Assembly: GCF_036287235.1 (NCBI RefSeq)
Contig: NZ_CP142850.1
Location: forward strand, 2,571,336-2,635,335
DNA from: Exiguobacterium sp. 9-2
Lineage (GTDB): Bacteria > Bacillota > Bacilli > Exiguobacteriales > Exiguobacteriaceae
Reading direction: 5' to 3'
DNA length: 64,000 nt
Position numbers and translations under genes: made by a program. Every line of letters begins with the position of its first letter. Positions within the stretch are counted from its first letter, which is position 1. Of this stretch, positions 50,549 to 64,000 are shown piece after piece. The notes under the pieces are model-generated. The model saw only the letters and a list, made by a program, of their open reading frames with translations, did no database searches and was not told the origin of the DNA.

Positions 50549-51572
50549 CTTGGATTTCCTCCTTCATCAAGTAATGGCTCTCGTACCAGTCGATGAATGC
50601 ATGGACACCAGCTTCGACCGTCGTCTGTGGTCGGTAGCCGATTGTCTCAAATAGTGAGGAGACATCGGCGAAACTTTCCGGGACGTCACCCGGTTGTAAC
50701 GGCATCCCGTTCTTGATCGCCGTCTTACCGAGGCGTCGTTCAATCAAGGCGACGAATTCACTTAAGCGAATCGGGCTATGACTACCGATGTTGTAGACGC
50801 GATACGGGACGTTGCTACGATCCGGTAAGGGATTTGACGCGTCAAACGTCGCGTCGACTTCCGGTTCAGTCTGGAACAGACGATAGATGCTTTCGATGAT
50901 ATCGTCGACGTAGGTGAAGTCTCGTCCCATCTCGCCGTAGTTGTAGAGATCGATTGGTTCGCCCTTCGCAATCGCCTCTGTGAACTTGAACAATGCCATA
51001 TCCGGGCGCCCCCATGGACCGTAGACGCTAAAGAAGCGAAGCCCTGTCGTCTTGATGCCGTAAAGGCTGCTATAGGTGTGTGCCATCAATTCGTTTGCTT
51101 TTTTCGAGGCGGCGTAAAGACTTAGCGGATGATCGACGGCATCCGTCGTCGCAAACGGCATCTTCGTATTCGATCCATAGACGGAACTCGATGAAGCGTA
51201 GATCAACTGCTCGACGGGATGATGGCGACAGGCTTCTAAAATCGAGAGAAAACCGACGATGTTTGATGTCATGTAGACATCGGGTCGGTCGATGCTATAG
51301 CGTACGCCTGCCTGCGCTGCCAGGTGGAGAACGAGATCAATTGATTCTTGTTCAAAGATTCGCGCGACGACTTCCGTCTCTTCGAGTGAGACCCGGTAAA
51401 ATGTATAATTCGTGCCGAGTTCAGCGAGCCGGGCTTCTTTTAACGTCGGGTCGTAATAGTCGTTCACTTCATCGAGTCCGATGACTCGGTAACCCTCCCG
51501 GATGAAACGACGTGCGGCATGAAATCCAATGAAGCCTGCGATACCAGTGATTAAGATCGTTTTATTCGGCAC
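50538..51572 (-). CDS. NAD-dependent nucleotide-sugar epimerase (UDP-glucuronate 4-epimerase-like)
   Basis: A 344-residue extended SDR epimerase. It has the dinucleotide motif ITGIAGFIGFHAARRF near residue 8, the catalytic region ASSSSVYG near residue 125, and the YxxxK motif in LYAASKKANELMAHTY near residue 150. NDYYDPTLKEARL near residue 36 is typical of UDP-glucuronate 4-epimerases. Paired with the 6-dehydrogenase it likely interconverts uronic acids. The GTG at 51572 lies nine bases after AGGAGG; no ATG fits. It overlaps the Wzy-like gene by 11 bases. Confidence 0.9.
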   Translation of the reverse strand: MPNKTILITGIAGFIGFHAARRFIREGYRVIGLDEVNDYYDPTLKEARLAELGTNYTFYRVSLEETEVVARIFEQESIDLVLHLAAQAGVRYSIDRPDVYMTSNIVGFLSILEACRHHPVEQLIYASSSSVYGSNTKMPFATTDAVDHPLSLYAASKKANELMAHTYSSLYGIKTTGLRFFSVYGPWGRPDMALFKFTEAIAKGEPIDLYNYGEMGRDFTYVDDIIESIYRLFQTEPEVDATFDASNPLPDRSNVPYRVYNIGSHSPIRLSEFVALIERRLGKTAIKNGMPLQPGDVPESFADVSSLFETIGYRPQTTVEAGVHAFIDWYESHYLMKEEIQDGA

Positions 51573-52848
51573 GGTGTTCGACCTCCTCGAAGTAGTGGCG
51601 CGCTTGCAGGCGCATGTAGTGAACGGATGTATAGACGATGAGTAACATCGGGAACAACTTATACCGGTGTCGAATGGCCGTTCCGACGTTGCCGGTTCCA
51701 AGACCGAAGATCAACGCGTTGAGTGCAAAAAGAAGGAAAAAGAAGAAGAGGACGCTGCCGAACGGATGCTGACGAATCAGTTTGAACGACCGAATGATGG
51801 TAAAACAACCGATGAAGTAGAAGATGGCGTCAAGGAAGAAAATCAGGATGTTCATGACACTCGACCATTGCCACGGGAATGGTGAGAACAGGAAGTAGAT
51901 CATCCGGATCGGTGAGTAGAGAATCATGTCGCCTGGACCTGTCACCGTCAATCCATTCAAGTAAGCGGAGCCGCCACGGTCATAGCTCATCCCGCTGAAC
52001 AACTGTCCGTTTTCCGATACGTGGGTGAACTTCGCGAACAAGACGTCTTGGAAGCTGTAGACGATGAAGCCGACGACGAGTACTTGGAAAATCAGTCGCT
52101 GTACCTTCGTCGGTTCAAAGTCCATGCGTCGTGTCTCATGGCTATAAAACGAGAAGTAGACGAGTAAGACGGCGATTCCAACGGCAAGACCGGAGTGGAA
52201 CATCGTACTGACGAAGTAGCCGAGATACGCGAGAACCATATGTCTGCTGGACTTCTCTTCCGTCCAGCGGACCATGTAATAAAGCGTATAGACGATTCCA
52301 AGGGCGACGATCTGATCCCGTAAGAGAATCGGTGAGAGCAACAATCCTTGCGGGAAGAACGCGAAGATGAGTGTTGCACCGAAGACGTATCGTTCCGGTA
52401 AACGTAATCGCTGTAATGTCTTTGCTAGAATGACGACGGCGACGACGCCAAGGATGACGTTGAAGAACTGAGCTAGGATTCGTTCCGGTCCGAACATCAG
52501 ATAGAAGATTCCGAGAAACTTGGAATAGGTGCCGCGGACGACATCATTGAAGGTCGACGGGTCGGTGAAGATTTGGACACCTTCGAGATGAAAGGCTTCC
52601 GTATCGTCCCCACTGTGCGGTGGTAAGCGGAACAGTTCGAGATCGATGAACATCAAAACCAATCGGACGAAGAAAGCGGTGATGAAGACAAGATAGAGCG
52701 GCGTCGTCTCGGCTTGGCGGAGTAGGTAATAGAGAAACAACACCGAGTTGATGAGCAGCAAGGCGGTCACGTACGTGTCCGGGAAGAGCGACCGGGCGAA
52801 TTGACAAACGAGCGCTTCAATGACGATGAGTAAGAGAATTGGTCGCAT
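51562..52848 (-). CDS. Wzy-type polysaccharide polymerase (putative)
   Basis: A 428-residue membrane protein with about eleven hydrophobic segments and a large extracytoplasmic loop (about residues 265-320, with SENGQLFSGMSYDRGGSAYLNG). It has weak sequence signals, as is usual for repeat-unit polymerases. Assignment comes from size, topology and position next to the flippase. It would polymerise lipid-linked repeat units outside the membrane. It starts 12 bases downstream of the Wzx-like gene. Confidence 0.75.
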   Translation of the reverse strand: MRPILLLIVIEALVCQFARSLFPDTYVTALLLINSVLFLYYLLRQAETTPLYLVFITAFFVRLVLMFIDLELFRLPPHSGDDTEAFHLEGVQIFTDPSTFNDVVRGTYSKFLGIFYLMFGPERILAQFFNVILGVVAVVILAKTLQRLRLPERYVFGATLIFAFFPQGLLLSPILLRDQIVALGIVYTLYYMVRWTEEKSSRHMVLAYLGYFVSTMFHSGLAVGIAVLLVYFSFYSHETRRMDFEPTKVQRLIFQVLVVGFIVYSFQDVLFAKFTHVSENGQLFSGMSYDRGGSAYLNGLTVTGPGDMILYSPIRMIYFLFSPFPWQWSSVMNILIFFLDAIFYFIGCFTIIRSFKLIRQHPFGSVLFFFFLLFALNALIFGLGTGNVGTAIRHRYKLFPMLLIVYTSVHYMRLQARHYFEEVEHRAE

Positions 52849-52860
52849 CTTCTTCCCTCC

Positions 52861-54120
52861 TTAACTGCTTTGTTCGACAACGAGGGCGACGTTTCGTGGA
52901 TACAAGGAGCGATAGAGCGCGGGTAACAGTAGGACGATCTGAGTGACTGCGCAAAGTGTGTATGCAATCGTCGCTCCGTATAGTCCGTACAACGGAATCA
53001 AGAGGCTACAAGCGACGAGATTGACGACGACACTGCCGAAGATCGAGAGTGTCTGGATTCGAAACTGCTGGAAGCCGGTCAGTAGTGCTTGAATGACGGT
53101 CGAATTATAGAAGAACAACGACGCGACCATCATCAAGACGAAAATCAGATGATATTTGACGAACGACGCATTGTAGAAAATCGTCAAACCCCACTTTCCG
53201 AAGAAGATTGCTCCAAGAATCAGGAGGATCCCGACAATGTTCGTCATCAGTAACATCGACCGTGTCAGCTTGCGCAGTTCCGGTAAACTTTGGCGTTCAC
53301 CAGTCTCTGACGAGAAGTTCGGCAATAAGACAGCAATCAAGGAGTGGATGAACAGACTACCGAGTACGAGTAGATAGGCAATGCTTGCATAATATCCGAG
53401 TTCTTCCGTTCCGATCGCATGTCCAACGAATAATCGTGGGATGTTTGCGTTCAAGGCGATCAGTAGAGCGACGAACCCGAGTGGCATCGCTTTAAGGAAC
53501 AACTCCTTACCGGATCGATATCGTAAGTCGAGCGCTTGATTGTCAAAACCACGACCGACCCGGCGAATCGTCGGGAGATCGTAGACGAGTAACATGATCA
53601 AGTTACCAGTGATCAAGGCGATGACGAATCCCTGGATCGAATGGGTCGTAAAGAGGACGAGTGCTGCGCCTGAGACATTCAGGAGACTGCGAAAAATCTT
53701 CGAGATGGCGACTTCCTTGAAGGCAGTGTGTCCCTGTAAGAAGCCGTATCCGAGATCAGCGAACGACTCCATGTATTTATTGAGATAGACGAGTAACGTC
53801 AGCAGTAAGATGTTCGCTTCACCGAAGAAATAATAGACACCAAGGAGGACGAACACACCTGCCGAGAGGAGCGAAAAACGGGTCTTGATGAAGAGCCAGA
53901 AGTTCGTCAGTCCAGCCCGTTCTGCCGTCAGGATCGTACTGGCATTCAGCCAACAGAACATGACGATTGGTGCGGTGATGGCAAGGGCGTAATTAAAGTA
54001 GCCGATATTGAGCGGCGTACTCCATTTGATCAGGAGCGTCAAAATCATCCATTGATGTAACGAATATGCTGTATCTGCAATGAAGATGAGATTGAAGCGA
54101 GACAGCCGAACCGTTTTCAT
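52861..54120 (-). CDS. Oligosaccharide flippase, Wzx-like
   Basis: A 419-residue MOP-superfamily membrane protein with about twelve helices. It starts FNLIFIADTAYSLHQWMILTLLIKW and has the N-terminal NASTILTAERAGLTN and RSLLNVSGAALVLF segments common to polysaccharide flippases, with a charged loop RRVGRGFDNQALDLRYRSGKEL near residue 180. It should flip undecaprenyl-PP-linked repeat units to the outer leaflet. It lies between the PglF-like and Wzy-like genes of the operon. Confidence 0.88.
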   Translation of the reverse strand: MKTVRLSRFNLIFIADTAYSLHQWMILTLLIKWSTPLNIGYFNYALAITAPIVMFCWLNASTILTAERAGLTNFWLFIKTRFSLLSAGVFVLLGVYYFFGEANILLLTLLVYLNKYMESFADLGYGFLQGHTAFKEVAISKIFRSLLNVSGAALVLFTTHSIQGFVIALITGNLIMLLVYDLPTIRRVGRGFDNQALDLRYRSGKELFLKAMPLGFVALLIALNANIPRLFVGHAIGTEELGYYASIAYLLVLGSLFIHSLIAVLLPNFSSETGERQSLPELRKLTRSMLLMTNIVGILLILGAIFFGKWGLTIFYNASFVKYHLIFVLMMVASLFFYNSTVIQALLTGFQQFRIQTLSIFGSVVVNLVACSLLIPLYGLYGATIAYTLCAVTQIVLLLPALYRSLYPRNVALVVEQSS

Positions 54121-54135
54121 CGTTCTCCCCCCTCT

Positions 54136-56001
54136 CTATTTACGAGCGATCCGCATCGTTGGTGCGACTGGATCGGCATCGGTCTCGTTCGTCGCTTCTA
54201 ATAAATACTGGCGAAGTGTATCGTCCCGATCGAGCGCTTGGGCGATCTCACGCAAGTACGGATCGACGGAGCCGAAGGGGCGTGTTTTTCCGACGAGGAT
54301 CTTATCGAAGACGAGTTCGTCATGCACCTCATCACGAGCGAGCAGTTCCTCGTAGAGTTTCTCCCCTTTTCGAATCCCGCTGTAGACGATCGGGATCTGT
54401 TCTTCTGTAAATCCACTCAAGTGAATCAAGTTTTTCGCAAGTGTCGTAATGTGGACCGGTTCACCCATATCAAGGACGAACACTTCGCCTCCTTTTGCGA
54501 GGACACTCGCTTGAATGACGAGACGACTCGCTTCCGGAATCGTCATGAAGTAACGTGTCATCCGAGGATCGGTGATCGTGATCGGCCCGCCTTTCGCGAT
54601 TTGTTCCTTGAAAAGTGGGATGACGGAACCGCGGCTACCGAGGACGTTGCCGAACCGGACGACGGCGAACGTCGTTTCGCTATTTCTTGCCATCTGCTGG
54701 ATGACCATCTCAGCGATTCGTTTCGTCGCGCCCATCACGCTCGTCGGGTTGACTGCCTTATCGGTCGAGATCATGACGAAGCGTTTGACTCCAGCCGCTT
54801 CTGCTGCTCGGGCGACGTTACGTGTTCCGTAGATATTATTCTTGACGGCTTCGCTCGGATTATCCTCCATCAGCGGGACGTGCTTATGGGCTGCCGCATG
54901 ATAGACGAGGTCCGGTTCGAAGCGTCGCATGACTTCAAGCATCCGGTCACTGTCCTGTACATCGGCGATGACGGATTCGAACTGGATGTCCTGGCTGAGA
55001 CACTCGAGTTCCCGGCGAATCAGGTAGATACTGTTTTCACCGTGTCCAAGAAGAACAAGTCGTTCAGGACGAAAACGAATCAGTTGCCGGCAAATCTCGG
55101 AACCGATTGATCCACCGGCACCGGTGACGAGGACCGTCGCTCCATGCACGCTTCGTTCGATTTCCGTGATATCAAGCTCGACTGGTTCCCGTCCGAGTAA
55201 ATCAGCGATTGAGACTTCACGGATTTGTTGAATCGACACCTTACCGGAAGCGAGTTCGACGAGCATCGGTAACGTATGCGCCTCGACTTGCGTCTGTTTA
55301 ATTCGATTCAACAGTTCGATTCGTCGCGGATACGATAAGGACGGGATCGCGAGGACGACCGCTTCAATCTTTTGTTCCTCGATGATGCATTCAAGTTGCT
55401 CGATCGCTCCGATGACAGGAACACCGTGAATTCGCATCCCGCGTAGTTCAAGCGAGTCATCGAGTAATCCGACGACGTTTAAGATATGCGATTTCTTTTG
55501 TTTCAGTTCTTTCGTGATCATCTGTCCGGAAGCTCCGGCACCGATGATTAGCGTCCGTTTGCCGAGCGTCTTATGCTCCGGAACGAGTCTGAGACTACGG
55601 CCACGAATCAACAACCGGACGAATAAGATACCGTTCAAGACAAGTCCTGTCTGCAAGAAGATCGCCCGTTCGACCGCAAAGTCGAACAACGCATATTCAA
55701 GACCAAGTAAAACGAAACTGCTGGCAAGGACGACGACGAGGAGAACGGCGAGATCACGTAAACTCGCGTAGCGCCAGATGATTTGATAGAAACGCATCCA
55801 ATGAGCGACGAAGGTGAGGGCAATCCACTGGATGAGTGCGATTTCGAGCGCATCCTGTAACTCGAAATTGACGGTGAGATGGAGCGGATTAAAGAAGTAG
55901 AACGTTACTACGGTTGCGAGTGCGATGACTCCGGCGTCGATCAGGCGAAGGAGTCCAATCTTCAACTGCCGACGATACGGGGTAAGCGGGGAATGCTGCA
56001 T
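54136..56001 (-). CDS. Membrane nucleoside-diphosphate-sugar 4,6-dehydratase (PglF/CapD-like)
   Basis: A 621-residue protein with four N-terminal helices, a CoA-binding-like Rossmann domain (~140-280, TLIIGAGASGQMI) and a C-terminal SDR dehydratase domain (~295-590). The dehydratase domain shows VLVTGAGGSIGSEICRQL, AAHKHVPLMEDNPSEAVKNN, MISTDKAVNPTSVMGATKR and VRFGNVLGSRGSVIPLF. The site has the SMGATKR Met/Lys arrangement of PglF-type enzymes, not a Tyr. It converts UDP-GlcNAc to the 4-keto-6-deoxy sugar used by the PglE-like aminotransferase. Confidence 0.94.
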   Translation of the reverse strand: MQHSPLTPYRRQLKIGLLRLIDAGVIALATVVTFYFFNPLHLTVNFELQDALEIALIQWIALTFVAHWMRFYQIIWRYASLRDLAVLLVVVLASSFVLLGLEYALFDFAVERAIFLQTGLVLNGILFVRLLIRGRSLRLVPEHKTLGKRTLIIGAGASGQMITKELKQKKSHILNVVGLLDDSLELRGMRIHGVPVIGAIEQLECIIEEQKIEAVVLAIPSLSYPRRIELLNRIKQTQVEAHTLPMLVELASGKVSIQQIREVSIADLLGREPVELDITEIERSVHGATVLVTGAGGSIGSEICRQLIRFRPERLVLLGHGENSIYLIRRELECLSQDIQFESVIADVQDSDRMLEVMRRFEPDLVYHAAAHKHVPLMEDNPSEAVKNNIYGTRNVARAAEAAGVKRFVMISTDKAVNPTSVMGATKRIAEMVIQQMARNSETTFAVVRFGNVLGSRGSVIPLFKEQIAKGGPITITDPRMTRYFMTIPEASRLVIQASVLAKGGEVFVLDMGEPVHITTLAKNLIHLSGFTEEQIPIVYSGIRKGEKLYEELLARDEVHDELVFDKILVGKTRPFGSVDPYLREIAQALDRDDTLRQYLLEATNETDADPVAPTMRIARK

Positions 56002-56022
56002 GATGGTGTCTCCTCTCCTCTC

Positions 56023-56667
56023 TCATGAGTGCGTCCGGGGAATGACTTTCGGATAACTGTCGGTCGCTTCACGTGTCACTTCTTTTTTGCTTAACGAGCG
56101 CGAATAGACGATCAGGAGTCCGAGCATTAAACCAAGGACACCACCGATTCCCGTATTCATCAAAATGTTCGGGGATACGGGCTTCGTTGGAATTCGTGCA
56201 CTGGAGAAGACTTCCGTCTTACTCGTGTTAATCAGTTGCGGGAGATAATCCTGGAAGACTTCCGTCATCGTATTTGCCTGAATGGCTGCCTGCTCCGCTG
56301 AACGATCCGTGATGGATAAGGCGATGACTTGCGAATCGAGATTGCTCGAGACCGTCAGACGATCCGTCAAATCGAATAATCGCTTGTCGGTGACGTTCAT
56401 CTTTTGGGCGACCTGATCGACGACCTCTGGGCTTCGCAAGATATCTTGATAGGTACTGACGAGTGTCGGCGTCGATGTCGCCTCTGCGTTTGCTTGAGGA
56501 ACGACGAGGATGTAGGCCGTCGCTTCATATGTCTTCGGAATGACATACGTGCTGAGTGCATATCCGGCACCTGCGAAGAGCATCGTGAAGAGTGCCAGTA
56601 GCCACCAGCCGCGTCGGAGTGTCGTCAGATGATCTCCAAAGGTTTTTCTTTGATGCATCGAGCTCAC
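56023..56667 (-). CDS. Wzz/YveK-type polysaccharide chain-length modulator
   Basis: A 214-residue protein with two membrane helices (WWLLALFTMLFAGAGYALSTYV near residue 20 and NTGIGGVLGLMLGLLIVY near residue 176) around an extracytoplasmic coiled region. It has the proline-rich AKIPTKPVSPN-like motif (SARIPTKPVSPN) before the second helix. It fits the CapA/YveK/EpsA adaptors that work with BY-kinases, but no tyrosine kinase gene is found here. The GTG at 56667 has GAGGTG seven bases upstream. It is the first gene of the operon. Confidence 0.9.
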   Translation of the reverse strand: MSSMHQRKTFGDHLTTLRRGWWLLALFTMLFAGAGYALSTYVIPKTYEATAYILVVPQANAEATSTPTLVSTYQDILRSPEVVDQVAQKMNVTDKRLFDLTDRLTVSSNLDSQVIALSITDRSAEQAAIQANTMTEVFQDYLPQLINTSKTEVFSSARIPTKPVSPNILMNTGIGGVLGLMLGLLIVYSRSLSKKEVTREATDSYPKVIPRTHS

Positions 56668-56996
56668 TGTTGTTCACCTCTTTCTAGCTTGACCGAATGG
56701 ATGGACATTGGTTATGTCTACACCTTATTTCCAATCGAATTCCAAAACAATTAGAGCTTGGTGAAAATGATTATATTTTTTTCGGTAGCTATCTCGTTTG
56801 CGTGACGCGAGTTCACAGCAGGAATTCATGTCACAAAAAAAACGCGATTCACGAAAAAATGATTGCGTTTTTCTTAATATTTTTTCATTGGTATGCATGA
56901 TTTTTTAAAATATGAGGGTAAATACAAATTTGACGATTAAAAAGTATTTGAATCGGTAATAAGTCCTATATGAAGGGTGGATAGTCTTTAGAAATC
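56668..56996. promoter_or_regulatory. Divergent control region of the polysaccharide operon
   Basis: A 329-base AT-rich gap without ORFs separates the operon from the divergent O-antigen-ligase-like gene. On the minus strand a perfect TATAAT lies at 56775-56770 but with no good -35 (AACGAG at 17 bases), as seen for activator-dependent promoters. Upstream of it, 56872-56835 folds as AAAAACGC/GCGTTTTT with a T-run, a terminator-like hairpin. CTCG/CGAG (56793-56811) adds a small dyad. On the plus strand TTGACG (56930-56935) has no well-spaced -10. Confidence 0.45.
56835..56872 (-). terminator. Terminator-like hairpin in the polysaccharide operon leader
   Basis: On the minus strand AAAAACGC (56872-56865) pairs with GCGTTTTT (56845-56838), followed by more T residues, ~170 bases before the first gene. 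If a promoter lies upstream of it, this could be an attenuator. Confidence 0.5.
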
Positions 56997-58265
56997 ATGT
57001 TAAAATCAGTCAATATACCCACATCGTTTGCCTTATCCATCCTAGTCATTTGGATCATGCTCGATGCTTGGATTCGTCCTCTATCCTTTACGGACGAAGT
57101 GTTACCTAAACAGTGGTCACTTTGGTTGCTTCCTGCCTACATCGTTCTGTTCAGCGTCTGTTGGTTCATCTTACGACCGTTCTATCGCGTCAATCGCACA
57201 ACTGGACATCAAATCGGATTTATTTTTCTGATTTATCTGACATTTCATATCGTATTTTTCTTTTTTAACGCGAATACGGATCGTGTCCTTGCTTCGCTTT
57301 ACCTCATTTCGACTTGGCTTTTCGTCGGCATCGTCTCTTCGCTCTCACGTACATCGATCGATCAATGGCATCGTCTTCTGTATTACTTCCTTTACGGACA
57401 AGCCGTCTTTCTCGCTTCCTACGCACTCATCGTCTCGTTTGGCACAGAGTATGTTCCGGTCGAAAACCTACAATGGCTTCGAATCGGTCCTTTGTCGTTT
57501 CCTCAGCTGTATGTCGGAGAGCAAGGTTCATTCCTTCGCCTTGCTGGACTGATGAACAATCCGAATACGTTCGCAGCGTGGCTCGTTCCGGGAGGACTGC
57601 TTGCTTGGGTCTATCTACTGCGACAGTTTCCACGTTGGCAAAGTCTTCTGCACGCTGTTTTCTTACTCCTGATCGTCATTGCTTTGCTAAGGAGCGGTTC
57701 GCAGACAGGAATCTACTCCTTCGTCCTCCTGGCACTCTTGACGAGTATTCGAATGGTTCCGGGAACGAGACGCCGGATGCAGGTAGCTGCCTGTTATGTG
57801 ACAGGAAGCCTGATCTTATGTGCCGTCTTCGCATTTCAAGGTCTGCTTCCCCGTCTGCTCAGTCTTAACGGACGATTTACGCTTTGGCAAGCAGGATGGC
57901 ACGCTTCCGCTGACGCGCTCTGGTTCGGTCACGGGATTGGAAGTGCCCCGCGTGGACTGCAGGAACAACTCGGGGAACGGATTCTTTATACATTTCACAG
58001 CACACCGATCACGTTTCTCTACGAATTCGGTCTCATTGGTTGTCTGCTGTACGGTGCAGTCTTTCTGTATCTGTTTTATCGACTGCTTCGCATTCAGACG
58101 ACGGATCTCGCTTTCCTCGCGCTCTTGCTAGCCAGCTGGCTCGGGTTACTCCAATTCACGGAAAGTGTTCTCGTCAGACCGAGTGGATTTTATTTCATTT
58201 GGCTCAGCCTTCTTGCTTATGCGTCGCTTCGTCGACTTCCACCTCACGACAGTACCCACACCTAG
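56997..58265 (+). CDS. O-antigen ligase/polymerase family membrane protein
   Basis: A 422-residue membrane protein with about eleven helices. A Wzy_C-like segment lies around LLRSGSQTGIYSF...LLSLNGRFTLWQAGWHASADALWFGHGIGSAP near residues 225-320. The FHSTPITFLYEFGLIGCLLYG motif near residue 330 matches the HNxxLxxxxExG loop of ligases, with Ser-Thr in place of the usual Asn. It could be a second polymerase or a ligase for the polymer of the divergent operon. The start ATG has only a distant purine-rich RBS (GAAGGGTGG, 16 bases away), so initiation may be weak. Confidence 0.82.
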   Translation: MLKSVNIPTSFALSILVIWIMLDAWIRPLSFTDEVLPKQWSLWLLPAYIVLFSVCWFILRPFYRVNRTTGHQIGFIFLIYLTFHIVFFFFNANTDRVLASLYLISTWLFVGIVSSLSRTSIDQWHRLLYYFLYGQAVFLASYALIVSFGTEYVPVENLQWLRIGPLSFPQLYVGEQGSFLRLAGLMNNPNTFAAWLVPGGLLAWVYLLRQFPRWQSLLHAVFLLLIVIALLRSGSQTGIYSFVLLALLTSIRMVPGTRRRMQVAACYVTGSLILCAVFAFQGLLPRLLSLNGRFTLWQAGWHASADALWFGHGIGSAPRGLQEQLGERILYTFHSTPITFLYEFGLIGCLLYGAVFLYLFYRLLRIQTTDLAFLALLLASWLGLLQFTESVLVRPSGFYFIWLSLLAYASLRRLPPHDSTHT

Positions 58266-58294
58266 ACGCACCTACACGAAAGGGGTATGACATC

Positions 58295-59053
58295 ATGAAG
58301 AAATGGACAGAACAACAAGTCATCGATAGCCTGATCGAAGCTAGTATCGAATATCCCTCTCTCGACGCAAAGACATATGCGCGCTGGTCGGTCGGAAAAG
58401 ACATTCCATCGATCACGACGATCATCAATGTATTCGGCTCTTGGCGTGAAGCACTCCAAGCTGCTGGTCTCTCATCAATTCGTCCGTATTTTTCAGATGA
58501 AGAGATTCTTACTTTCATCAAGGAAGCATCGACACGTTTACATCCCTTCCATAGTAATAGCTACCGGGAGTGGGCAAAAGCCAAACACGGACCATCCTTG
58601 ACGCTGATCAACTTACGTTTCGGTTCTTGGTCACGTGCGCTTGAAGAAGCACAGATCGAGATGACACGCTCCATCTCGATGACGGAAGAACGGATCATCA
58701 CTGCTTTACTTGAAGCTTCCGATGTCCTTTCGCGTCTGACAACACAGACGTATGCGATTTGGGCACAGGAAAATGGACATCCGACAGTCGCGACGATTGC
58801 CCGTAAATATGGTTCGTGGGCAGATGCTCTCGCTTGCCTTGACATCGCTCCACCTCGCCGGAAATGGGTCGAAGAAGACGTCCTTGAAGCACTGCGGCAG
58901 GCACAAGAAGAATTACCTTCTCTCAGCATCATCCATTACCGAAAATGGGCAGAAGGTCGCTCGGTTCCGAGCACCTCGACGATCAACGCCCTCTTCGGCA
59001 GCTGGACCTCCGCCGTGCAATGCCTCAAGCGTGCACGCGTTTCTCTTTCCTAA
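58295..59053 (+). CDS. Four-repeat homing-endonuclease-associated (HNH_repeat-type) protein, paralogue 2
   Basis: A 252-residue protein of four ~55-residue repeats with cores FGSWREAL, FGSWSRAL, YGSWADAL and FGSWTSAV. Each is preceded by a TYxxW...PSxxTI-type segment. It aligns repeat-for-repeat with the protein encoded at 43144-43887. No nuclease domain is present. It follows the ligase-like gene by 29 bases and so probably shares its transcript. The two copies enclose the polysaccharide genes. A DNA-binding regulatory role is inferred from the repeat type. The ATG at 58295 follows AAAGGGG. Confidence 0.8.
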   Translation: MKKWTEQQVIDSLIEASIEYPSLDAKTYARWSVGKDIPSITTIINVFGSWREALQAAGLSSIRPYFSDEEILTFIKEASTRLHPFHSNSYREWAKAKHGPSLTLINLRFGSWSRALEEAQIEMTRSISMTEERIITALLEASDVLSRLTTQTYAIWAQENGHPTVATIARKYGSWADALACLDIAPPRRKWVEEDVLEALRQAQEELPSLSIIHYRKWAEGRSVPSTSTINALFGSWTSAVQCLKRARVSLS

Positions 59054-59069
59054 TCCTTTTCTTCCATCT

Positions 59070-59110
59070 AAAAAAGAGTGACCCGGTATGTTACCGGATC
59101 ACTCCTTTTT
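59070..59110. terminator. Bidirectional terminator
   Basis: AAAAAAGAGTGACCCGGTA (59070-59088) pairs with TACCGGATCACTCCTTTTT (59092-59110) with two mismatches and a 3-base loop. Confidence 0.9.
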
Positions 59111-59118
59111 CGTGCGTA

Positions 59119-60114
59119 TCATGATTTTTCGATCTGCTCAAGTAGAGATGCCGGCAATAGTGTCACCGTATCGTGCTTCAACAAATAGATGTCTTCCGTA
59201 TACGCCCCGATTCGTCGAGGATTGCGTTGCCCGTGGAGATTGTTTCGGATCGCTTTCGGAAAATTGACCCCACATTCATAGGCATGAAGATACCCCCCAC
59301 CAAATCGTGGATTGATTTCCGATAAGTAGAGCGTTCCGTCAACATCGAACAGATCAAAATCTAGTGGACCGACGAGACGAGTTCCCGCTAATACCTGCTC
59401 AATCAATTCAAAGACGTCGTCGCGTTTGACGGAGCGACTCTTATCCGTTTCTCCTGCGCGCATGACGAGTTTCTCCTTAATGAAGATATCCGTCACTTCA
59501 TGCGTCAGCCAATCGACATACACATCAACGCCAAGTTCTTGTCCTCTTAAGTATTCCTGAATCAATAAATTCGGATGGACAGCGAACAATCCTTCGACGA
59601 CCTGAAGGGAGGAGACAACCTGGACATGAAGACTAGCACTGCCGTTACGTGGTTTTACGAAGACTGGAAATGCGACTTCCCCTTGCGCGAGCGCATTTTT
59701 AAATGCGTCGAGTGTCGTATATGTTCGTGCATGGGCAATCCCTTCCGTGACACAATACGTATACATAGCGTATTTATCAAAGCATAACTGGCACGCATCC
59801 ATCGGTGAGACAAGGACCGTGACACCGATCGCTTCAAATCGTTCTGTTGCCGCTGCGAGCAACTCCAATTCGGGATCGATCAATGACAACAGCGCCGTTA
59901 CGCCTTCCCGCTGACACAACTCTAGTAGATGATCGATATACCCCGGTGCGTCGATGCGCGGGACAAGATGATGACGCTCCGTCATATAAAGACCCGGTGC
60001 AAGTGGATTACAATCCGCAGTACTGACGTGACCGTCCGGCATCTCACGAACGAAGTACTCGACCAGTTTCGTTCGGCGACCGACGCTTGTCATCAACAAA
60101 TGGGCAGTCTTCAT
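59119..60114 (-). CDS. ATP-grasp carboxylate-amine ligase-like protein
   Basis: A 331-residue ATP-grasp enzyme resembling carbamoyl-phosphate-synthase large-chain fragments found in polysaccharide loci. The pre-ATP-grasp Rossmann part has MTSVGRRTKLVEYF near residue 9. ATP-binding residues are in FPVFVKPRNGSAS near residue 149 and LIQEYLRGQELGVDVYVD near residue 181. The metal site is LYLSEINPRFGGGYLHAYECG near residue 262. Such enzymes join an amine and a carboxylate; the substrate is unknown. It lies next to the VanZ gene and may serve surface-polymer modification, which is inference. Confidence 0.86.
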   Translation of the reverse strand: MKTAHLLMTSVGRRTKLVEYFVREMPDGHVSTADCNPLAPGLYMTERHHLVPRIDAPGYIDHLLELCQREGVTALLSLIDPELELLAAATERFEAIGVTVLVSPMDACQLCFDKYAMYTYCVTEGIAHARTYTTLDAFKNALAQGEVAFPVFVKPRNGSASLHVQVVSSLQVVEGLFAVHPNLLIQEYLRGQELGVDVYVDWLTHEVTDIFIKEKLVMRAGETDKSRSVKRDDVFELIEQVLAGTRLVGPLDFDLFDVDGTLYLSEINPRFGGGYLHAYECGVNFPKAIRNNLHGQRNPRRIGAYTEDIYLLKHDTVTLLPASLLEQIEKS

Positions 60115-60130
60115 AGGGCCATCTCCTTCG

Positions 60131-60655
60131 TTAAAAGTGATGCCTTTTCTTTTCGTGCCAGAAAGAAAGACTTCCTGCTTGGCGCTGTACTTTTTTCCTA
60201 CGAACGAGCAGATAGCATCCGATTCCGATCAATGCTCCGGTTCCGTCGAGTAACACATCTTGGACGAGACCAGTCCGGTCACCCGTTAAAATTTGATGAA
60301 ACTCATCAAACACAGCGATGGTGATTGCTAATGAGTAAGCGAACAAGACGGCAAGACCCGGTGTCAAACGACGACGCGTCAAATCAATCAAACCGATACC
60401 TAATACGAGAAACGTCGAGACGTGCGCTGCTTTACGAATGAAAAATTCAATGAATCCACTGCGTCCGAGTGCCGCTACACTGACTTCTCCATGATACGAG
60501 AAGGAGATGAATCGCAGATGATCGACGAATCCTAATGGGATATAGCGAGATAGACCAGGTTTGATCGATTGTGCCTGATAAGGCATCGAACTTGAGATGA
60601 AGAGGATCAATAGGACGGCAAAGACGACATAGCCGGACCAGGTGATTTTTTTCAT
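60131..60655 (-). CDS. VanZ-like membrane protein
   Basis: A 174-residue protein with about four or five helices. The family text is HVSTFLVLGIGLIDLTRRR...AITIAVFDEFHQILTGDRTGLVQDVLLDGTGALIGIGCYLLV, containing the VanZ motif DEFHQxxxxxRxxxxxDxxxNxxG, with glycines and threonine at the end. VanZ-like proteins are common near surface-polysaccharide genes, and their activity is not defined. It is 16 bases upstream of the ATP-grasp gene and likely co-transcribed with it. Confidence 0.9.
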   Translation of the reverse strand: MKKITWSGYVVFAVLLILFISSSMPYQAQSIKPGLSRYIPLGFVDHLRFISFSYHGEVSVAALGRSGFIEFFIRKAAHVSTFLVLGIGLIDLTRRRLTPGLAVLFAYSLAITIAVFDEFHQILTGDRTGLVQDVLLDGTGALIGIGCYLLVRRKKVQRQAGSLSFWHEKKRHHF

Positions 60656-61282: not shown

Positions 61283-61320
61283 AAAAGAGATCAAAATCAG
61301 CTGATTTTGATCTCTTTTTT
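61281..61320. terminator. Perfect 40-base palindromic bidirectional terminator
   Basis: AAAAAAGAGATCAAAATCAG (61281-61300) is followed immediately by its exact reverse complement (61301-61320). It overlaps the stop of the XRE gene and reaches the stop of the convergent gene. Confidence 0.9.
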
Positions 61321-61630
61321 ATTCTGTTTGGACGATATGATCGATGTATAATTGATTGTCGTCATATGTTGCTTCTAATAACTGACGAAAAAACGTATTT
61401 TCGCTTGTTTTCTCGGATACGAATACACGTGCGTAATGCTTATGCGCCTGCTCGAGTACAGTGAATTTCAAAGTACGGGCAGATGAAGAGAAAAACAATT
61501 GACGACCGGGATAACCAAAGGCGTCCATCGCTTTCGATTCTTCTAAGAAATGAAAAGGTTCGTCTGGAAACAAGGTCTCAATGAACGATAGACAACTTTG
61601 TTGAAAGGTACTTCCGCTCTGATTTTCCAT
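61319..61630 (-). CDS. Hypothetical small protein downstream of the peptide-modification genes
   Basis: A 103-residue soluble protein with no recognised domain (SGSTFQQSCLSFIETLFPDEPFHFLEESKAMDAFGYPGRQL, then RTLKFTVLEQAHKHYARVFVSEKTSENTFFRQLL). A GAGGAG-type RBS precedes the ATG. It lies 141 AT-rich bases after the methyltransferase-like gene, on the same strand. Without a visible terminator between, it could belong to that operon, for example as an immunity or accessory protein, but nothing in the sequence shows this. Confidence 0.7.
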   Translation of the reverse strand: MENQSGSTFQQSCLSFIETLFPDEPFHFLEESKAMDAFGYPGRQLFFSSSARTLKFTVLEQAHKHYARVFVSEKTSENTFFRQLLEATYDDNQLYIDHIVQTE

Positions 61631-61771: not shown

Positions 61772-62509
61772 TTATTGTTTTTCGAACTCCAATACCATCA
61801 TTGTCTTTCCTTCATATAGAAATTGTCCATGATAACGCGATAACGTCGCAAATTCAAACAGCGTTTTTGGTTCGTATAGATATTCGACCGCATAACTGAC
61901 TTTTTCCTCTTGTCCGGATTTGAGATAAGCGTTGAACAAAAGACGCTCCCCATCGATGTGATAGCCATAGAAAAGTAATGTCTTTTGAAAGCGTCGTGTC
62001 GCAATCGGATGGACAATTGATTTTAGGTGATCGATGTGATACAAGGACACAAGCAAGCGTCCGCTCGGTCGTAGCAACTGACGGATGTTTCGGAAGAACA
62101 ACAGCAGTTCCCCACGCGTATAACGTAAAATCGTCGTTCCCGGTAAGATGATCCGGTCAAAATACTCAGGCCCGACGACGTCCGTCACGTCATGACTCCA
62201 GCCGTAAATCTTATGCTGATACTTCTCCGCGATCTGTTTCGTCCGCGAAGCTTCCGGTTCAATCAGATAAAGGTCATACCCCTCGTCCGACAAAAGATTA
62301 AAGAGCGATGGATCAAACGTTCCGTAAAATAGGATCTGCTCTCCTTTTTGTAGATAACGTCGATAGAGCATCAACTCATCGACTTCATTTAACTGTTGTG
62401 CTTCTTGGTACAATCGACCAAATCGTTCATCTCCCTGTACATGATCGAGCACTTGGACGCGGGAGTAGCTACCTTTACGCAAAAACGGACCAAATAAGAC
62501 CTCACCCAT
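61772..62509 (-). CDS. Class I SAM-dependent methyltransferase-like protein
   Basis: A 245-residue protein with a Rossmann-like methyltransferase core. EQILFYGTFDPSLFNLLSDEGYDLYLIEPEASRTKQIAEKY (residues ~57-97) has a motif I degraded from GxGxG to YGTFDPS but keeps the acidic end (LIEPE). FDRIILPGTTILRYTRGELLLFFRNIRQLLRPSGRLLVSLY (~117-157) is a typical motif IV/post-V region. The C-terminal half may be an acceptor domain. Its start overlaps the 401-residue protein gene by eight bases with AAGGAG ten bases upstream, so translation is coupled. In this context the substrate could be the adjacent peptide, which is inference. Confidence 0.78.
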   Translation of the reverse strand: MGEVLFGPFLRKGSYSRVQVLDHVQGDERFGRLYQEAQQLNEVDELMLYRRYLQKGEQILFYGTFDPSLFNLLSDEGYDLYLIEPEASRTKQIAEKYQHKIYGWSHDVTDVVGPEYFDRIILPGTTILRYTRGELLLFFRNIRQLLRPSGRLLVSLYHIDHLKSIVHPIATRRFQKTLLFYGYHIDGERLLFNAYLKSGQEEKVSYAVEYLYEPKTLFEFATLSRYHGQFLYEGKTMMVLEFEKQ

Positions 62510-63707
62510 GATACATCAACTCCTTGTAATGCTGAATCGCTTCCGCATAGTTTGCGCCGAGTCGCTCTGGCAACACGTCGAATTGTTCCTTTTGATCCGC
62601 TTCTAAAATCCAGAGGAATGCTTCGTTCGTCTCGAACAGGCGTAACGTCGTTCGATCGAACGCAAAACACCCTTCCTCATTTTGAATGCCGATTAGTGTT
62701 AACGGTCCAATCCGTCCAGACGTCCGGGGTAATTCAAGATCCGAGTAAGGGGTGATGAAACGGCTCGTCCCTTGAAACGATCCTGCCAGTTGATACAACA
62801 ACGGAAACAACTCCAGTTCCGTTTGCGACGCGAGCGCCTCCGGTTGAAGTTGCTGTTCTCGAAGACATTCAATATCGCTTGAAATATCCGCACTCAACTG
62901 AATCGTTTTTTGTCGATCAGCGTAAATCCCATCCGCAAAAAAGAACAAGCGATGCGAGACGCATAATCCGCTTACTGTCGCATAATCGAGAATCCCCATC
63001 GTTTGATCGTTTTGAATGCGCCCCGTTTGCTGCCAGTCTTGTAACCGCTCGGCAAGTGCGTCGCGAGATAAGACCGTCAGCTGTGACGCAAGTGACGGAG
63101 ATAAACGATCTGAGAATGTCAACAAAATCGGGGTCCGACTCATCAGCTCGATGATCGGCAGATCGTGCCGCATCGGATGATCAAAATAGATGACACTATT
63201 GATCGTCATCACTTGAAAACTGTCTACTGGAATCCGGTCCAACAATGAGCTGTCCTCGATGTAGACATGACGCAGCGGTTGCGGATGGTGTGGCACGGAT
63301 GCCGGATAGACACCCGTCATCAAAGAAAGGAGAGCATGATGAACAGCCGGAACGGATGCCGAAACCGGTATTTCTTCCTGCGGTAAGAAGAGACCGTTCA
63401 GGAAATCCGGTTGACCAAACAGAACCTCCCCGTTCTGCCGGATCAAATGAAACTGGACGTGTAGCATCTCGTGTTGCAAATAGGCAACGAGACGCAACGT
63501 ACGCTCCCCTTCTCCTTGAAGGACGAAGACGTAGTGCTCATATTCCTGAAAATTCATGTAATCGAGTAAATCATGAAACGTATGTGTATCATAATCAAAG
63601 GCATCAATTGATATACGGTGTGTCTCACAAAAAGTCTGCATCGCGATGGATGGCAAGGAACGTTGCAACCAACCGTCTTGTTCCGATATAAGTGATAATC
63701 CGATCAT
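62502..63707 (-). CDS. Unrecognised 401-residue protein, putative peptide-maturation protein
   Basis: A soluble 401-residue protein with no family that I recognise. The N-terminal MIGLSLISEQDGWLQRSLPSIAMQTF resembles the opening strand-helix of GT-A glycosyltransferases or related folds, but no DxD-type site is clear. The C-terminal ~70 residues (IGIQNEEGCFAFDRTTLRLFETNEAFLWILEADQ) loosely resemble a PqqD-like winged-helix RiPP recognition element, which needs structural testing. AGGAGAGAGGAC precedes the ATG. It lies after the peptide gene and its terminator and overlaps the methyltransferase-like gene, as a core component of the putative peptide cluster. Confidence 0.75.
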   Translation of the reverse strand: MIGLSLISEQDGWLQRSLPSIAMQTFCETHRISIDAFDYDTHTFHDLLDYMNFQEYEHYVFVLQGEGERTLRLVAYLQHEMLHVQFHLIRQNGEVLFGQPDFLNGLFLPQEEIPVSASVPAVHHALLSLMTGVYPASVPHHPQPLRHVYIEDSSLLDRIPVDSFQVMTINSVIYFDHPMRHDLPIIELMSRTPILLTFSDRLSPSLASQLTVLSRDALAERLQDWQQTGRIQNDQTMGILDYATVSGLCVSHRLFFFADGIYADRQKTIQLSADISSDIECLREQQLQPEALASQTELELFPLLYQLAGSFQGTSRFITPYSDLELPRTSGRIGPLTLIGIQNEEGCFAFDRTTLRLFETNEAFLWILEADQKEQFDVLPERLGANYAEAIQHYKELMYHG

Positions 63708-63736
63708 GTCCTCTCTCCTTTCTCTTCAAGTGATTG

Positions 63737-63779
63737 AAAAAAGGGCTTCATTCTCTACGATCCGAATGAAGTCCTTTTT
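63737..63779 (-). terminator. Terminator between the small peptide gene and the maturation genes
   Basis: On the minus strand AAAAAGGACTTCATTC (63779-63764) pairs with GAATGAAGCCCTTTTTT (63753-63737) with one mismatch, 8 bases after the peptide stop. A leaky terminator here would make peptide mRNA exceed downstream mRNA. Confidence 0.88.
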
Positions 63780-63786
63780 GTGTGTA

Positions 63787-63933
63787 TTAAGCCGATTTGA
63801 TAGTTGCTTTTGGTTTCGTATTAGTCCGGTCCATTTCCCGATGAGCGAGGGGGGCGACGGAGACGGTAGCAGGATTGAGACACCAAGCGCAAGAAGTCAT
63901 GTTACGTCGCGTTTCTTTTAATATGAGTGTCAT
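63787..63933 (-). CDS. 48-residue Cys-Ala-Trp-Cys peptide, putative RiPP precursor
   Basis: The peptide is MTLILKETRRNMTSCAWCLN followed by PATVSVAPLAHREMDRTN and TKPKATIKSA. Two cysteines lie at 15 and 18 in a CAWC motif. The first 12 residues are charged/hydrophobic (leader-like). The C-terminal 30 residues are rich in Thr, Ser, Ala and Lys with no acidic residues except Glu33 and Asp35. AAGGGG seven bases before the ATG supports translation. It has no signal peptide. An intrinsic terminator follows, then the 401-residue and methyltransferase-like genes. That order is typical of ribosomal modified-peptide clusters. A CxxC metal- or redox-active small protein is the main alternative. Confidence 0.62.
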   Translation of the reverse strand: MTLILKETRRNMTSCAWCLNPATVSVAPLAHREMDRTNTKPKATIKSA

Positions 63934-64000
63934 GGTTGTACCCCTTTCTGAATCAAGTGAGATGGTCGTTGAAACATTGATACGAAATCAAGTAAATCAG

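Follow-up and report, generated by a model that had tools for sequence, protein, structure and literature searches.

The question raised by this locus was what is encoded by three closely spaced genes on the minus strand at the far end of a 64,000-nucleotide stretch (the window) of Exiguobacterium sp. 9-2, contig NZ_CP142850.1, and which role these genes may play. The genome, referred to as G000, is 3.06 Mb long and consists of one contig. A preliminary description had regarded the three genes as a possible new cluster for a ribosomally synthesized and post-translationally modified peptide (RiPP). Based on all comparisons, it was concluded that a RiPP ancestry of the operon is well supported, and that the operon is rather likely to be a reduced, probably repurposed daptide system that is probably controlled by quorum sensing. 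As judged from sequence, a descent of the two large genes from daptide genes is highly probable. The elements concerned are listed below.

63787..63933, minus strand: gene of a 48-aa DapA-like (daptide-precursor-like) peptide; open reading frame (ORF) reading, alignment and leader profile
63941..63949, minus strand: ribosome-binding site AGAAAGGGG of the peptide gene; direct reading, GAAAGG aligned in 19/19 genomes
63737..63779, minus strand: intrinsic-terminator-like hairpin and T-run in the gap between the peptide gene and the dapB-like gene; inspection, 18/19 genomes
62502..63707, minus strand: gene of a 401-aa DapB homologue; tblastn and profile comparison
61772..62509, minus strand: gene of a 245-aa DapM homologue with a class I methyltransferase fold and a degenerate S-adenosylmethionine (SAM) motif I; profile comparison and model
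63934..64000, no strand: stretch of the divergent region, shared with a PlcR-type receptor gene, that falls inside the window; ORF reading and alignment
L002 10414-11295, plus strand, beyond the window: PlcR-type receptor gene; homology
L002 11300-11734, minus strand, beyond the window: PapR-like repeat gene; repeat units read

Relationship of the two large genes to dapB and dapM

The 48-codon ORF at 63933-63787 with a good ribosome-binding site before its ATG, the hairpin with a T-run that begins ~8 nt past its stop codon, and the two partner genes, whose ORFs overlap by 8 bp, were all located as claimed earlier. The 401-aa protein had not been recognized as belonging to a known RiPP class; it proved to be related to DapB of the daptides, the operon being a derived form. 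A tblastn search of plasmids with this protein matched two Priestia plasmids (32.8% identity over 400 aa, E 1e-67) and, more distantly, a Weissella plasmid (E 1e-9). Matches to the Priestia DapB were also found on two Staphylococcus epidermidis plasmids, one of which served to describe the cluster. A further daptide-type cluster, with genes assigned by eye, was found in genome G303. The profile comparison of the 401-aa family with the DapBs of these four Bacillota clusters gave a probability of 100% (E 3e-40), or 98.9% without Priestia, and the comparison of the 245-aa protein with the four DapMs gave 99.5% (E 4e-22), or 97.6% without Priestia. Each of the two crossed controls yielded 0.08%. 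By profile comparison, the 401-aa protein is thus homologous to DapB, which recognizes the leader in daptide clusters.

In the Priestia and Weissella plasmids the dapB-like gene is followed by an overlapping class I methyltransferase gene, and the regions also hold a class III aminotransferase, a short-chain dehydrogenase/reductase-type (SDR) oxidoreductase and an ATP-binding cassette (ABC) transporter, with an annotated M50 peptidase in addition in Priestia. This gene set is the one given for Bacillota daptide clusters in passages of PMC10036551. The best NCBIfam matches of the Priestia aminotransferase, peptidase and methyltransferase were daptide models, all under the curated cut-offs. Three of the four Bacillota clusters examined were plasmid-borne.

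The S. epidermidis plasmid with the daptide-type cluster (L115 7426-14879) is mobilizable and resistance genes adjoin the cluster. Daptide-type genes occur a second time on the Weissella plasmid, in a partly shortened copy (L113 1-3336).

Searches of other kinds were less informative. Pfam, NCBIfam and PADLOC family searches of the three proteins gave nothing usable beyond weak methyltransferase matches. The PDB profile search of the 401-aa protein found no relative (dysferlin alone, E 0.87), and that of its C-terminal part gave no match. With the 401-aa model, Foldseek returned no match at E <= 0.001 and a second structural search (VIA) no Z of 5 or more. An idea based on a GEGE motif seen by eye, that the N-terminal half is a remnant of a B12-binding radical-SAM protein, was dropped.

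The distribution of the operon was followed in a genus group of 19 Exiguobacterium genomes, G000 included, and in 19 genomes of a sister genus of the same family. The 401-aa gene was present in 19/19 genomes of the genus group and in 0/19 of the sister genus. With a profile built from Exiguobacterium only, it was found in none of the 360 other Bacilli genomes drawn (sample of 398 genomes, 379 of them outside the genus group). With Priestia and Weissella included in the profile, 1 of 313 genomes outside the genus group matched, a count that is based on 329 genomes drawn and takes three genus genomes missing from the listing as not drawn. The peptide, the methyltransferase-like gene and the divergent regulator accompany the 401-aa gene in all 19 genomes. 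A plasmid search at the DNA level found no relatives, nor did a phage search.

The mean column identity of the 401-aa protein was 75% overall (19 sequences) and 85% in its C-terminal 70 residues (14 sequences). These residues match in position the RiPP recognition element (RRE) region of a daptide DapB, MpaB, and the model of this domain shows three strands followed by two helices, the second being 25 residues long. TfDapB was also modelled with a C-terminal RRE, as passages of PMC12338566 report. Direct tests for an RRE were weak or negative, and the label is used here because of the DapB homology and a published deletion experiment; the lasso B1 RREs among the structural-match rows of the 401-aa model are suggestive at most.

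The 245-aa protein had been described as SAM-methyltransferase-like. Its kinship and fold agreed with that description, and its SAM motif I is degenerate. With E <= 1, all 19 proteins matched the NCBIfam daptide_MTase model (best 7.8e-5); the protein of the window scored 19.6 bits against a cut-off of 175. The structural model showed a class I fold (predicted local distance difference test score, pLDDT, 83) that matched many methyltransferases with Z up to 17, among them the RiPP methyltransferases CypM, YunM and CgnL and the C-methyltransferases PsmD, SgMT and SeMT. Motif I reads G-x-[FL]-[DS] in 19/19 proteins, with the second Gly gone and the acidic residue missing too; it is intact in 4/4 fuller clusters (EIGSGNG, EIGSGTG, ELACGSG and ELASGSG). 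The earlier suggestion that the peptide is methylated is doubtful because of this loss. A link to crocagin, considered from the CgnL fold match, was dropped, CgnB and CgnE being aminopeptidase-like.

The peptide and its leader

A peptide homologue was found at the same position in 19/19 genus-group genomes, or 18/19 under a stricter motif search. The 401-aa gene without the peptide, named earlier as a refuting result for the RiPP interpretation, occurred in 0/19 genomes. Full-length matches to the peptide profile numbered 19 among 398 genomes, all of them genus-group members. Partial matches in 52 genomes outside the group (<=20.5 bits) were judged to be due to chance.

The coding nature of the ORF, which had also been left for checking, was confirmed by an excess of synonymous over non-synonymous change. 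The proportions of synonymous (pS) and non-synonymous (pN) differences were computed over codons 2-40, excluding G006, where the peptide length differs. They were 0.28 and 0.045 for the pair G000/G017, 0.42 and 0.045 for G015/G008, and 0.52 and 0.227 for the distant pair G000/G018; pooled over every pair among 18 genomes, pN/pS was 0.39. By this measure the peptide is under purifying, coding selection.

Twelve positions are invariant in the 19 peptides (M1, E7, S14, W17, C18, N20, V26, A27, P28, L29, R32 and M34), and the second half of the peptide is strongly conserved (W-C-x-N ... VAPL-x-x-R-x-M). The CAWC motif reported earlier is present in the window's peptide; it is not a conserved motif, as the positions read [C/Y/S][A/G]WC and W17 and C18 alone are invariant. 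Cyclization through CAWC is without support because the first Cys varies. The peptides end in Ala or Ser (18/19) or, in G006, in Arg; a terminal Thr was found in 0/19, and there is no Gly/Ala-rich hydrophobic core.

It was also observed that the small ORFs of the four Bacillota clusters share an F[KES]E...N start and a C-terminal Thr after a Gly/Ala-rich hydrophobic stretch. The Exiguobacterium leaders begin with FKE in 9/19 peptides, LKE in 9 (the window's own included) and LIE in G006, followed by nine residues and W. The same FKE-x9-W is present in Weissella precursors 1 and 2 and in Priestia precursor 1, the last of these also with GWC. A leader profile was built from ten foreign leaders alone, with Priestia precursor 1 taken from an inner ATG and a third Thr-ending ORF of G303 excluded because of its uncertain start. 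When 2250 small ORFs around the 19 loci were ranked with this profile, Exiguobacterium peptides held 8 of the top 11 places. The pattern F[KR]E-x9-W, picked after the sequences had been seen, occurred in 9 of the 2250 ORFs, every one the peptide, and its relaxed form in 20, of which 19 were the peptide. Standing in the precursor position, the peptide thus retains, at the level of sequence, a daptide-like leader start of [FL]-[KI]-E, nine residues and W.

The hairpin between the peptide and the 401-aa gene is kept in 18/19 genomes by inspection, in agreement with the earlier picture of a RiPP-type operon with the precursor first, then the hairpin and two partner genes. The exception is G006, which carries an extra small hydrophobic ORF at this place. 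By eye, small hydrophobic ORFs also stand beside the precursors in the Priestia (L112 9501-9668) and G303 (L116 6993-7190) clusters, and the ORF of G006 (L041) looks like a possible remnant of a complete daptide cluster.

Comparison with complete daptide clusters

The operon resembles the daptide (DapABCDMP) clusters of Bacillota and Actinomycetota in its full-length DapB and DapM, gene order, overlapping start, precursor position and leader start, and in the small hydrophobic ORF of G006. It differs from them in having one precursor gene, in the loss of DapM motif I, and in a peptide that has neither the C-terminal Thr nor the hydrophobic core. It is fixed at one chromosomal place in the genus group, unlike the clusters examined here, of which three of four lie on plasmids. 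No adjoining dapC, dapD, dapP or RiPP exporter gene was recognized by ORF reading. Beyond base 64000, where a look for transporters or proteases had been suggested, none of the RiPP type was recognized by eye in ~9.7 kb; a PlcR-type receptor gene and a multi-copy pheromone gene adjoin instead. An ABC pair ~2.7 kb away (L002 13013-14815) resembles, by eye, a cell-wall polymer exporter.

The search with the daptide aminotransferase model found class III aminotransferases in 19/19 genus-group genomes (best score 214.6 bits). It also matched, below the cut-off, in all 14 control genomes. The genome-wide aminotransferase cut-off does not discriminate. Daptide chemistry requires the C-terminal Thr, which is invariant in daptide precursors; according to passages of PMC10036551, MpaC does not accept Ser or Ala instead of Thr. 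Canonical daptide chemistry by the Exiguobacterium operon is unlikely because motif I is lost and the C-terminal Thr is gone.

The PlcR-type receptor and its pheromone

The gene directly upstream and divergent, which lies beyond the window, encodes a full-length PlcR homologue (PDB 2qfc, E 1.7e-52, 277/291 profile positions) with an RNPP_C domain match (E 1.2e-34). Its helix-turn-helix (HTH) domain and tetratricopeptide-repeat (TPR) C-domain are homologous to PlcR. No PlcR-type receptor was found in the 19 sister-genus genomes at E <= 1e-20. The receptor and pheromone locus (L002 10414-11734, equal to G000:C1 2635413-2636733) is found at the corresponding position in each of the 18 remaining genus genomes. 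The pheromone gene, convergent behind the receptor gene, was seen in 18/19 genomes; the contig of G007 stops before it, and that of G012 begins within it. Its precursor has, by eye, a secretion-signal-like start and carries 2 to 9 units, for example NDLPAEF, KEIPFEF, NGLPLEY or DLLPPEH. For comparison, PapR7 of Bacillus cereus is ADLPFEF according to the abstract of PMC6568020.

The mean identity of the receptor was 90% in the DNA-binding half and 54% in the ligand half. Between the ligand half and the 401-aa protein, identities were uncorrelated (Spearman -0.016); the coefficients for the 401-aa protein were 0.905 with the methyltransferase and 0.61 with the receptor's DNA-binding half. The ligand half tracked the pheromone unit, with a partial rank correlation of 0.52 that 0/5000 permutations reached; G007 was left out of this test, its pheromone gene being cut off by the contig end. 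The ligand half and the 401-aa protein had 2/16 tree splits in common, as against 13/16 for the methyltransferase and the 401-aa protein. In the pair G005/G013 the 401-aa proteins are 100% identical (rounded), the ligand halves 55%, and the pheromones differ. Since the ligand half follows the pheromone and not the 401-aa protein, the signal and the sensing half are read from these sequences as exchanged between lineages independently of the operon, with the DNA-binding half and the operon staying in place.

The system resembles PlcR-PapR of the B. cereus group in its full-length receptor with HTH and RNPP_C, in its [LI]P-x-E-[FYH] units, which are similar to PapR7, and in the existence of several pherotypes. 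It is unlike PlcR-PapR in that the precursor has 2-9 near-identical pheromone copies, the receptor gene is divergent from a dap-type operon, and pherotypes are swapped between species. RRNPP-regulated RiPP clusters are known from the Rgg-linked radical-SAM RiPPs (RaS-RiPPs). There, likewise, an RRNPP receptor and a pheromone adjoin a RiPP-type operon; the Exiguobacterium locus differs in its PlcR-type receptor and daptide-derived operon.

In passages of an earlier survey, multi-copy propeptides of PlcR-type receptors were counted as 3 of 15 atypically long ones (PMC9765709), and RRNPP_detector listed 196 candidate regulated clusters of all kinds (PMC10075063). Exiguobacterium is absent from the main texts of both surveys. 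The literature search gave no paper combining daptides with Exiguobacterium, and passages of PMC3171730, which mentions both PlcR and Exiguobacterium, contain no description of the present system.

Tandem arrays of PlcR-like receptors were observed at a second locus, with three in G000 (C1 1786505-1789186, L117), five in G007 (C1 1073055-1077657, L118) and three in G013 (C1 880498-883153, L119). A simple pattern scan on the receptors' strand found no PapR-like precursor beside the arrays of these three genomes.

Proposed mechanism and alternative explanations

Judging from its position, the operon is probably under the control of the PlcR/PapR-like quorum-sensing system. We proposed that at high cell density the secreted PapR-like peptide would bind the divergent receptor and switch the operon on. 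Most transcripts would end at the conserved hairpin, leaving the peptide in excess over its partner proteins. With its C-terminal RRE-like domain, the DapB-like protein would then still bind the peptide's leader half, presenting the rewritten, conserved second half to the DapM-like protein, which without its SAM motif would most likely serve as a scaffold or have a changed chemistry. Leader recognition would thus be retained and the (S)-N2,N2-dimethyl-1,2-propanediamine (Dmp) terminus not made, the module being reused under purifying selection across the genus group.

Several observations weigh against this reading. Quorum-sensing control is backed by divergent adjacency only, and a degenerate motif I is no proof of lost SAM binding. 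The leader-profile scores were weak (best E 1.4), an unrelated, non-peptide ORF ranked first, the eight top-ranked copies are one family and not independent, and the other 11/19 peptides, including the window's own, fell outside the best 40 of the 2250 ORFs. The Exiguobacterium peptides lack the L/V-N pair found ahead of the Trp region in all ten foreign leaders, and FKE-x9-W occurs in just 3/10 foreign leaders and 9/19 peptides. The C-terminal domain gave 0.27% with a PqqD-type RRE profile, under the reversed and best shuffled controls, and all DapBs together 0.09%, in a comparison without secondary-structure scoring and with a PqqD alignment from 30 loci of Bacilli; structural matches of the domain to lasso RREs were weak (Z 4.2), level with unrelated folds. 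A Priestia-type DapP query found nothing in the 19 genomes, which was a weak test with no positive control. The negative result for DapC and exporters refers to the surroundings of the operon. The daptide aminotransferase cut-off of 450 bits was passed by 0/19 genomes, but Priestia DapD also fails it (224.9 bits).

Among the alternatives, one shares the daptide ancestry and differs in the present chemistry, so that its odds overlap with those of the reduced, repurposed system. The operon would be a working RiPP pathway of its own: recognition would fall to the DapB-like protein, and the DapM-like enzyme, still dependent on SAM or on a different cofactor, would modify the conserved W-C segment. 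The fold matches to CypM, YunM, CgnL, PsmD, SgMT and SeMT, the invariant W and C and the purifying selection on the peptide speak for it; folds of the CypM type are, however, common to many unrelated methyltransferases, none of the 19 genomes retains the acidic residue and the G-x-G of motif I, both of which the fuller clusters have, and neither a protease nor a RiPP exporter was recognized alongside. Such a pathway was regarded as possible and rather unlikely. A slightly better chance, still short of even, was given to a variant of the repurposed system itself, with overlapping odds, in which the module is no longer biosynthetic and the peptide, the DapB-like protein and the pseudo-methyltransferase form a regulatory or sensing complex. 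It is favoured by the module's occurrence at a single location in all 19 genomes, RiPP clusters being typically patchy, by the lost motif I and by the want of a recognized export or protease gene beside the operon. Against it, family searches recognized no regulatory domain in the 401-aa or the methyltransferase-like protein.

The remaining two explanations fared worse. If the 48-codon ORF encoded no precursor and its translation acted, as with attenuation leader peptides, on the terminator before the two genes, its position directly before a conserved terminator-like hairpin would be accounted for. The conserved residues lie mid-peptide and not at its end, though, the synonymous sites vary freely and therefore the protein is what selection acts on, and the ORF matches daptide precursors in slot and leader start; attenuation was considered improbable. 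A normal daptide pathway with its missing enzymes encoded elsewhere in the genome is more improbable still. The class III aminotransferases of all 19 genomes, the best of them scoring near Priestia DapD, would fit it, but the matches in 14/14 control genomes leave nothing specific in this. The empty DapP search, though without a positive control, and the peptide ends in Ala, Ser or Arg, the first two of which MpaC rejects (passages of PMC10036551), also speak against it.

Within the reading of a reduced, repurposed daptide system, a bolder version was put forward tentatively and is itself rather doubtful. A daptide system may have been domesticated into a core-genome module, in which the leader peptide, DapB and the pseudo-methyltransferase form a quorum-controlled complex acting as a peptide-driven switch. 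With the same reserve, this version would hold that no natural product is made and that species freely exchange the pheromone and the receptor half.

If the reduced system is as proposed, it would be a natural RiPP pathway minus its defining chemistry, with the precursor, the recognition protein and an inactivated-looking enzyme kept genus-wide, and it would show in isolation what use the interaction between DapB and leader has by itself. It would also be a case, in bacteria that can be cultured, of a PlcR-PapR-type receptor with exchanged multi-copy pheromones joined to a dap-type operon, in which the pherotype exchange and its target are directly testable.

Neighbouring genes and other observations

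One more conserved gene follows the operon:

61319..61630, minus strand: 103-aa gene conserved in 19/19 genomes; candidate operon member, no Pfam match

Additionally, PqqD-type RRE proteins, which were not found in the 14 genus-group genomes covered, were detected in two sister-genus genomes (G019, L072; G021, L092), where they may belong to possible lasso peptide clusters. Window positions 51562-60655 looked, by eye, like an exopolysaccharide cluster with polymerase-like, flippase-like, sugar epimerase, Wzz-like, ATP-grasp and VanZ-like genes.

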